54,684 nucleotides of DNA, taken from positions 1-54,684 of the forward strand of contig CAKKSD010000034.1 in assembly GCA_919902995.1 (NCBI GenBank), written 5' to 3'. The DNA comes from Thermodesulfovibrionia bacterium (GTDB taxonomy: Bacteria > Nitrospirota > Thermodesulfovibrionia > JACRGW01). The notes under the pieces are model-generated. The model was not told the DNA's origin. It searched no databases and saw only the letters and a program-made list of their open reading frames with translations. The position numbers and the translations under genes are program-made. Shown one piece after another: positions 1,846 to 54,684 of this stretch. How positions within the stretch are numbered: the stretch's first letter is position 1; each line of letters opens with the position of its first letter.

Positions 1846-1861
1846 GAAAAGGAGGTGTTAA

Positions 1862-2065
1862 TTGACTTTAATTATTATTATTATCTTGATTCTTGCTGTA
1901 TATGTCCTTTCTGCAGTTAATCTCCACTTTGGATACAAAAAACTTCTCTGAGGGAGAATTCCCCCTGAGGTCAGGGGTAAGATTGCAGAGAAGATTGCAA
2001 GAAATGGCAAGGAAATACCTGAATGGCTCAGGAAAGAATCAGGAGGGTCCTGCAGTATAAAATAG
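1862..2065 (+). CDS. Candidate small membrane selenoprotein (TTG start, in-frame TGA at 1949-1951, ends TAG)
   Basis: AAGGAGG SD 6 nt before TTG at 1862; LTLIIIIILILAVYVLSAVNLHFGYKKLL(TGA)GRIPPEVRGKIAEKIARNGKEIPEWLRKESGGSCSIK; N-terminal TM helix; hairpin CCCCTGAGGTCAGGGG begins 10 nt after the TGA. Confidence 0.35.
1962..1977 (+). promoter_or_regulatory. Candidate bacterial SECIS-like hairpin (CCCCUG-AGGU-CAGGGG)
   Basis: Perfect inverted repeat, extendable by two U-A pairs past one mismatch; apical loop AGGU lies 16 nt from the in-frame UGA. Alternative: a hairpin of the adjacent palindrome array. Confidence 0.35.
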
Positions 2066-52837: not shown

Positions 52838-54684
52838 ATGAAGATTAAAAGAAGGGATTTTTTAAAGGCAGGTGTAGCCACAGGTGCAGCAGTTGCACTA
52901 AGTGGTGGACTTACACTCAATGCCTTTGCCAATGGCAAAGACCAAAAAACAGGAGGTGGCGGGACAGAGCCAGGCAAATGGATACCTTCCACATGTCAGG
53001 GCTGCACGCAATGGTGCCCTGCTGAGTTTTTTGTACAGAATGGAAGGGCTGTAAAGGTAAGGGGCAACCAGCTGTCCAAAGTAAATAACGGTTATGTATG
53101 TCCGAGGGGACATATGATGCTTCAGGAACTTTATGACCCTGACAGGGTAAAGGTTCCAATGAAGAGGACGAATCCCAAGAAGGGCAGAGACATTGACCCG
53201 AAATTTGTTCCTATCACTTGGGATGAGGCATTAAATACAATTGCCGATAAACTGGTGGAGCTCAGAAAGAATAATGAACCTCATAAGTTCTTATTTATCA
53301 GGGGGAGGTATTCACCTAAGACATATCCTCTTGCTTATGGCACATTGCCTAAAATAATAGGTTCTCCAAATGCTATATCTCATAGCGCAATCTGTGCAGA
53401 GGCAGAGAAATTCGGACCCTTTTACACAGAGGGTTTCTGGGGATACAGGGATTATGACCTTGCAAGAACAAAATGTCTGGTGGCTTGGGGATGCGACCCC
53501 TTAAGCTCAAACAGAAATGTCCCAAATACCATCAACAAGATCGGTGATGTTATTGACAATGGCAAAGTTATAACTGTTGACCCCAGACTGAGCGCAATAG
53601 CTGCTAAGTCTCACGAATGGGTGCCTATAAAACCGGGTGAAGACGGTGCCCTTGCTGTTGCTATTGCCCATGTGATTCTTACTGAGGGAATGTGGAGTAA
53701 GGAGTTTGTAGGAGATTTCAAAGACGGTAAAAACCAGTTCAAAGCTGGAAAGCCTGTTGATGAAGCGGCATTTGCTGAAAAGCACACGCATGGCCTTATA
53801 AAGTGGTGGAATATCGAACTCAATGAAAGGACACCTCAGTGGGCAGAAAAGATCTGCGGTATCTCAAAAGGTCAGATTGTCAGAATAGCGAGAACTATGG
53901 GCAAAGCTTCGCCCAATGTTGCTGTATGGATGGGTCCCGGACCTGCTATGAGCCCAAGGGGTGCATATCCATCCTTTGCAATTCATGCATTAGCAGGACT
54001 TCTTGGCGCTTGCGAGAACGAGGGAGGTTCTTTGAGAAATCATGCCAAGTCACCTTCAGGCAAACTGCCAGAAATTGATCCTTTCCTCGATGACATTGCG
54101 AAGAAATATGGCAAAGAGAAGAAAATCGATCAGAGGGGATATAAACAGTTCCCCTCAATATCAGAGGGCAAGGCTGGAAGCTCGGTCATTACCAACAATG
54201 TAGCAACAGGCATTCTGAATGAAGATCCCTATGATATTAAAGTGGCCATCAGCTACTGGGCGAACTTCAACTTCTCCTGTACAGGAGCCGACAGATGGGA
54301 CAAGGCTATGACAAAGGTTCCTTTCTATGTTCATATAGGGACCAACCCTTCAGAAATGGCGATGTTTGCAGATATAGTGCTTCCAGCTGCGCACCATGCA
54401 ACTCAGAAGCTTTCAATAATTGATAACAAAGGCAACCTCCATACACATCTTTCGATTCAGCAACCTGTTGTCGGGAGGTTATGGGAAGAGAAGGCTGATG
54501 AGACCGAGATTATGTGGATGCTTGCCGAGAAACTTAATGCTAAGGGATTCCCTAATATGCTTAACTATTTTAAGTCATTTAAGGACCCCGAAACTGGCAA
54601 GACCCCAAACAACGCAGATGAGTTTGCACTGATTACTACAAGGATTATAAGCATGCCCGTATGGAAGCCTGAAAAGCCTCTTAA
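52838..54684 (+). CDS. Tat-exported molybdopterin oxidoreductase catalytic subunit, ArrA-like (3' end beyond window)
   Basis: RRDFLKAG Tat motif; CQGCTQWCPAEFFVQNGRAVKVRGN...YVCPRGH Fe-S motif; FIRGRYSPK; SHSAICAEAEKFGPFYTEGFWGYRDYD; AGGAGG SD. Open at the window end, so absent from the ORF track. Confidence 0.88.
   Translation, partial: MKIKRRDFLKAGVATGAAVALSGGLTLNAFANGKDQKTGGGGTEPGKWIPSTCQGCTQWCPAEFFVQNGRAVKVRGNQLSKVNNGYVCPRGHMMLQELYDPDRVKVPMKRTNPKKGRDIDPKFVPITWDEALNTIADKLVELRKNNEPHKFLFIRGRYSPKTYPLAYGTLPKIIGSPNAISHSAICAEAEKFGPFYTEGFWGYRDYDLARTKCLVAWGCDPLSSNRNVPNTINKIGDVIDNGKVITVDPRLSAIAAKSHEWVPIKPGEDGALAVAIAHVILTEGMWSKEFVGDFKDGKNQFKAGKPVDEAAFAEKHTHGLIKWWNIELNERTPQWAEKICGISKGQIVRIARTMGKASPNVAVWMGPGPAMSPRGAYPSFAIHALAGLLGACENEGGSLRNHAKSPSGKLPEIDPFLDDIAKKYGKEKKIDQRGYKQFPSISEGKAGSSVITNNVATGILNEDPYDIKVAISYWANFNFSCTGADRWDKAMTKVPFYVHIGTNPSEMAMFADIVLPAAHHATQKLSIIDNKGNLHTHLSIQQPVVGRLWEEKADETEIMWMLAEKLNAKGFPNMLNYFKSFKDPETGKTPNNADEFALITTRIISMPVWKPEKPL

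Follow-up and report, generated by a model that had tools for sequence, protein, structure and literature searches.

A short reading frame interrupted by a TGA triplet was found close to the beginning of the window, the whole stretch of 54,684 nucleotides of Thermodesulfovibrionia DNA that was analysed here. With the UGA read as selenocysteine (Sec, U), the frame at 1862-2065 of the forward strand gives the product LTLIIIIILILAVYVLSAVNLHFGYKKLL-U-GRIPPEVRGKIAEKIARNGKEIPEWLRKESGGSCSIK-stop, which comprises 67 residues and has 37 codons between the TGA and the TAG. The earlier note had proposed a small membrane selenoprotein at this place, and the layout it described was recovered throughout. 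The AAGGAGG sequence stands 6 nt from the TTG at 1862, every base of the frame from the TGA at 1949-1951 to the TAG at 2063 is as described, and the hairpin begins 10 nt and its loop 16 nt downstream of the UGA. The hydrophobic N-terminal helix also appears in an AlphaFold2 model. The features are as follows:

1849 to 1855, forward strand: Shine-Dalgarno sequence AAGGAGG, 6 nt 5′ of the start codon, kept in the relatives L007 and L008
1862 to 2065, forward strand: putative selenoprotein gene, TTG start at 1862-1864, TAG stop at 2063-2065, 67 residues
1865 to 1933, forward strand: codons of the predicted membrane helix (residues 2-24), hydrophobic, an AlphaFold2 helix with a pLDDT of about 95
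1949 to 1951, forward strand: in-frame TGA, putative Sec codon (residue 30); the same column holds TGA in 33 genes and a Cys codon in 18 genomes
1962 to 1977, forward strand: candidate SECIS hairpin CCCCUG-AGGU-CAGGGG (loop 1968-1971), which meets the published constraints on bacterial SECIS elements
2051 to 2053, forward strand: distal Cys codon (residue 64), invariant in the alignment, the proposed partner of Sec30

At the column of the TTG start codon, L008 carries an ATG. The gene lies between a gene at 502-1845, which we take to encode a PmbA/TldD-type protein, and a small gene at 2375-2920, presumably HD-like, and this arrangement is found only in the window's own family. No gene cluster recurs near the selenoprotein gene across families. 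Elsewhere the neighbours differ. It seems to be a stand-alone gene whose context suggests no function. Directly past the stop codon, positions 2066-2370 of the window contain short palindromic segments (for example TCATCCCGAACTTGTTTCGGGATG), which are possibly a REP-like array. The palindromes that the earlier note had pointed out were thus seen again by eye, and they begin just past the TAG, outside the reading frame. Repeat tools at default settings reported no repeats in the window, and searches of the downstream repeats against Rfam gave only sub-threshold matches to sRNAs. L007 has similar palindromes past the gene, whereas L008 has none there.

Relatives of the gene were found in 50 Nitrospirota genomes. 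At the position of the UGA, 32 of these genomes carry TGA (33 genes) and the other 18 carry a Cys codon, either TGC or TGT, in an open frame. When the aligned codon was read in the members fetched, all 33 stop codons in this column were TGA, and TAA or TAG never occurred. A search with the readthrough protein gave matches in 39 of the 231 genomes of the class, with TGA at the same position in the matches from the window's genus (87% identity) and family (66%). With a profile, 43 matching genomes turned up in a sample of 396 from the phylum. All 29 matches of a DNA-pattern scan of 85,462 species were Nitrospirota; the pattern accepts TGN at the Sec codon and was tuned on one class, so that members elsewhere may be missed. 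Named magnetotactic bacteria among these matches include Candidatus Magnetobacterium casense, Ca. Magnetominusculus xianensis and Ca. Magnetocorallium. The Cys-carrying genomes all belong to one family, f11, which takes in magnetotactic bacteria. A second, distant clade in other Nitrospirota classes consists entirely of TGA members (e.g. MNTVIIIAAALVILYGWGAVSYYYGFYKRNPL-U-GTKLSPEVLAK...IPQW...SC). The plasmid collection that was searched held no match to the family.

In a tree computed with the Sec/Cys site masked, all Cys forms fall into one clade (support 100/98), which suggests a single switch between Sec and Cys; this tree has few columns, resolves few of its deep forks and does not include the member L137. 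L137 (G079:C74, about 53750-53930) is a divergent TGA member within the otherwise Cys-carrying f11. Its PxW part is missing, and its protein sequence is altered after a change of codon register. Four short Cys paralogues of 46-64 residues (L134, L135, L136 and L138), which belong to the second clade, keep the membrane helix and a Cys-Gly motif (YGFKNWYPMCGG) and are without the PxW tail; three of them (L134, L136 and L138) carry two or more Cys residues close together. One genome (G059) holds two diverged TGA copies, L015 and L043, with LIUDGG and LLUNSS variants. L068 (G270:C91) is nearly identical to L008, yet its genome, 70% complete, sits in another Nitrospirota family; misbinning or recent transfer are possible reasons.

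The sequence downstream of the UGA is conserved as protein. Across 46 aligned sequences, Tyr14, Sec/Cys30, Pro53, Trp55 and Cys64 are invariant, and Tyr25 and Gly49 are nearly so. The distal Cys follows the Sec/Cys residue at a distance of 32-36 residues in all 47 members listed. For the codons past the UGA, nine pairs were informative and gave dN/dS values of 0.05-0.43, the window gene and L008 having 0.26. Three pairs were saturated, and the closest pair, L006 and L007, gave a value of 2.7 from 5 changes, too few to be informative. The comparison of these sequences shows purifying selection on the codons past the UGA, where the earlier note had suggested a Ka/Ks check. Homologues that all end at the TGA or lose their conservation there had been named as evidence against a selenoprotein; instead, the relatives continue with conserved sequence beyond it.

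The published model of bacterial SECIS elements describes a loop of 3-9 nt, a stem of 4-16 bp, a spacing of 16-37 nt, an MFE of -7.5 or lower and a G within the first two loop bases that is followed by G or U (PMC13188914). With arms CCCCUG (1962-1967) and CAGGGG (1972-1977), the window hairpin fits every one of these constraints: its stem has 6 bp, its loop AGGU (1968-1971) has 4 nt with G at position 2 and then G, the spacing is 16 nt and the MFE is -12.3 kcal/mol. Compared with dinucleotide shuffles the hairpin has a z of -1.04, and compared with synonymous recodings a p of 0.046. Both strands of the window together contain 2039 TGA triplets, of which 21 come with a hairpin that fits the model at -8 kcal/mol or lower; the value for the window gene is -10.0. 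Since about 1% of the TGA triplets in the window match by hairpin energy, the hairpin alone is not decisive. The SECIS of E. coli fdhF has an AGGU apical loop as well, its distance from the UGA being almost equal, and most of the family retains one G-U step in the loop. However, the stem sequence of fdhF is different, and the window hairpin shows no evident counterpart of its bulged U.

Conservation across the family makes a much stronger case for a SECIS than the hairpin alone. Codons +6 to +8 are fixed as TCC GTG AGA in Sec members, whereas they are free in Cys members. In the members with Ser-Val-Arg, Ser is encoded by TCC in 17 of 17 cases, Val of that type by GTG in 16 of 16 and Arg by AGA in 17 of 17, while the flanking residues of Sec members use several synonyms at equal divergence. 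In L015, Arg is encoded by CGA, yet the CUC/GAG stem is retained. Two stem pairs, numbered from the first base past the UGA, change on both sides: pair 14-26 occurs as C-G, U-A and G-C and forms in only 11 of 18, and pair 13-27 occurs as C-G and G-C. A one-codon insertion upstream of the hairpin in L016, L042, L043 and L085 shifts the hairpin as a unit, and in L137 a CCCUC/GAGGG stem enclosing CGUGCCA persists despite the shifted codon register. Of 29 Sec members, 23 have a model-fitting stem-loop, compared to 4 of 18 Cys members; at -4 kcal/mol or lower the counts are 15 of 29 and 1 of 18. Several Sec members have a stem of only 3-4 bp that is weak in isolation, and L020 shows no clear hairpin past the UGA. 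On the whole, this comparison of aligned sequences shows the hairpin to be under selection at the RNA level.

The earlier note had also named a lack of selABCD in the genome as evidence against its proposal. In the host genome (2.01 Mb, 94% complete), all four genes were found. On contig C41, selB (TIGR00475, 383 bits) adjoins selA (TIGR00474, 614 bits). The tRNA-Sec (selC) exceeds the Rfam cut-off and has the anticodon UCA, and selD scores 362 bits in a frame with its own UGA. This TGA (L055, 1532-1534 of G000:C31) lies in the N-terminal loop, KAAG-TGA-AGKLG; by its sequence, SelD is itself a selenoprotein in the host. selA is present in all 32 TGA genomes (two sets of 22 and 10) and in 12 of the 18 Cys genomes, being absent from the other 6. 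This difference agrees with a selenoprotein, as modest evidence, because most of the class carries selA (201 of 231 genomes) and the genomes are related.

Our comparison shows that the UGA acts as a sense codon equivalent to Cys, and we infer Sec as the inserted residue. Decoding by a suppressor tRNA or a changed code would give a sense UGA as well and is compatible with this comparison, which shows the sense reading of the codon. It is nevertheless very improbable, as neighbouring and homologous genes use UGA as an ordinary stop codon, Cys is the sole alternative at this column and all TGA genomes have the Sec machinery. The earlier note had considered three other alternatives, and all are contradicted by the Cys homologues, the purifying selection and the conservation of the hairpin codons. 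Under the standard code the gene would yield exactly 29 residues, a plausible membrane helix, so that a microprotein truly ending at the UGA, with the downstream frame left untranslated, is conceivable on paper. We give it hardly any weight, because selection acts past the UGA, where P, W and C are invariant, and because the helix and the downstream part share one open frame in 18 Cys genomes. The palindromic repeats just past the stop codon would suit a pseudogene or a frame broken by a repeat hairpin. But the same TGA recurs in 32 genomes of several classes and is never replaced by TAA or TAG, and the hairpin sits among conserved codons and is displaced whole by one-codon insertions, which makes this explanation the least credible of all. 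The inference of the earlier note that this UGA is read as Sec is therefore supported by the sel genes, the TGA and Cys relatives, the downstream conservation and the conserved hairpin codons. We are highly confident, from sequence comparison, that this is a selenoprotein gene whose UGA at 1949 encodes Sec in a 67-residue single-pass membrane protein. In the proposed mechanism, translation would begin at the TTG at 1862 and produce the membrane-spanning helix. SelB carrying Sec-tRNA would then recognise the hairpin at 1962-1977, and because of this Sec would be inserted at the UGA, after which translation would run on to the TAG at 2063.

The AlphaFold2 model (mean pLDDT 79.6, pTM 0.41) contains helices at residues 2-24, 26-30, 35-47 and 54-57. 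Sec forms have at most one positive charge at the N-terminus and a tail with a net charge of +3 to +11; Cys forms have a longer N-terminus that is hydrophobic and Pro-rich. By the positive-inside rule, this charge bias suggests that Sec probably faces the cytosol at the membrane surface. The topology that we infer thus has a single membrane helix, whose Sec-bearing end probably lies on the cytosolic side; a short helix, PxW and Cys come next in the modelled architecture. The tail past the helix would lie in the cytosol, with Sec30 at the membrane surface and Cys64 beyond the short helix and PxW. The eukaryotic SELENOK and SELENOS are likewise small proteins with a single N-terminal membrane helix and Sec in a cytosolic tail. 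On the other hand, they carry Sec close to the C-terminus and have the SECIS in the 3′-UTR, and we claim no sequence relation.

The earlier note did not recognise the family, and indeed no library or catalogue entry matches it. For the members scanned, Pfam, NCBIfam (June 2026), PHROGs and the PDB gave no match near the cut-off; Pfam hints such as FixQ and the Rad50 hook were far below the cut-offs and were rejected. A 2026 catalogue lists 119 prokaryotic selenoprotein families and subfamilies (PMC13188914, Table 1), and none of its entries has the layout of a membrane helix, LLUGG, PxW and a distal Cys. In the open-licence literature searched, no paper described such a selenoprotein from Nitrospirota. 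We therefore name it a new selenoprotein family. Bacterial selenoproteins as such are a known kind, and with the catalogued ones the family shares the in-frame UGA for Sec, Cys homologues at the same site, a SECIS just downstream and the sel genes; the family itself is new. Many catalogued prokaryotic selenoproteins are thioredoxin-like redox proteins. The new family has no UxxC or CxxU motif, its distal Cys lying 32-36 residues away, and the all-helical AlphaFold2 model shows no thioredoxin-like fold. It seems likely that these single-pass membrane selenoproteins, shorter than 90 residues and so far known only from Nitrospirota, make up an undescribed family, with one Sec/Cys switch on the branch that holds the magnetotactic bacteria and a SECIS able to outlive the codon register, as in L137.

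As to function, our guess, a tentative one, is that Sec30 and Cys64 might be linked as a selenenylsulfide and work as a redox pair, with an oxidant or a disulfide on the inner side of the membrane as the substrate to be reduced. Within the same selenoprotein reading, the two residues could bind a metal or metalloid instead of cycling redox states. The clustered Cys residues in three of the four short paralogues would fit this, as would a 2026 review in which Sec may be a metal ligand in the small prokaryotic selenoproteins SaoB, SaoC and UXX-star (PMC13188914). We consider metal binding rather unlikely, as no metal-resistance genes were seen to recur beside the gene and as, in the main family, the Sec/Cys pair is 32-36 residues apart, with no further invariant residue of a metal-binding type. 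The remaining probability falls to other functions, such as that of an accessory protein in a membrane complex.

A gene of 67 residues is easily overlooked when it lacks a known domain and contains an internal stop, and because of the UGA "stop" gene finders can easily miss its product. An in-frame TGA paired with Cys homologues, together with codon conservation specific to the hairpin, can reveal such short selenoproteins. The family adds a membrane-tethered Sec protein to a phylum rich in uncultured members. As the split between Sec and Cys forms is clean and two thirds of the Cys carriers have selA, the value of selenium is open to direct study, and the family, if our reading is true, would be a natural system for what selenium adds to a membrane-tethered protein.
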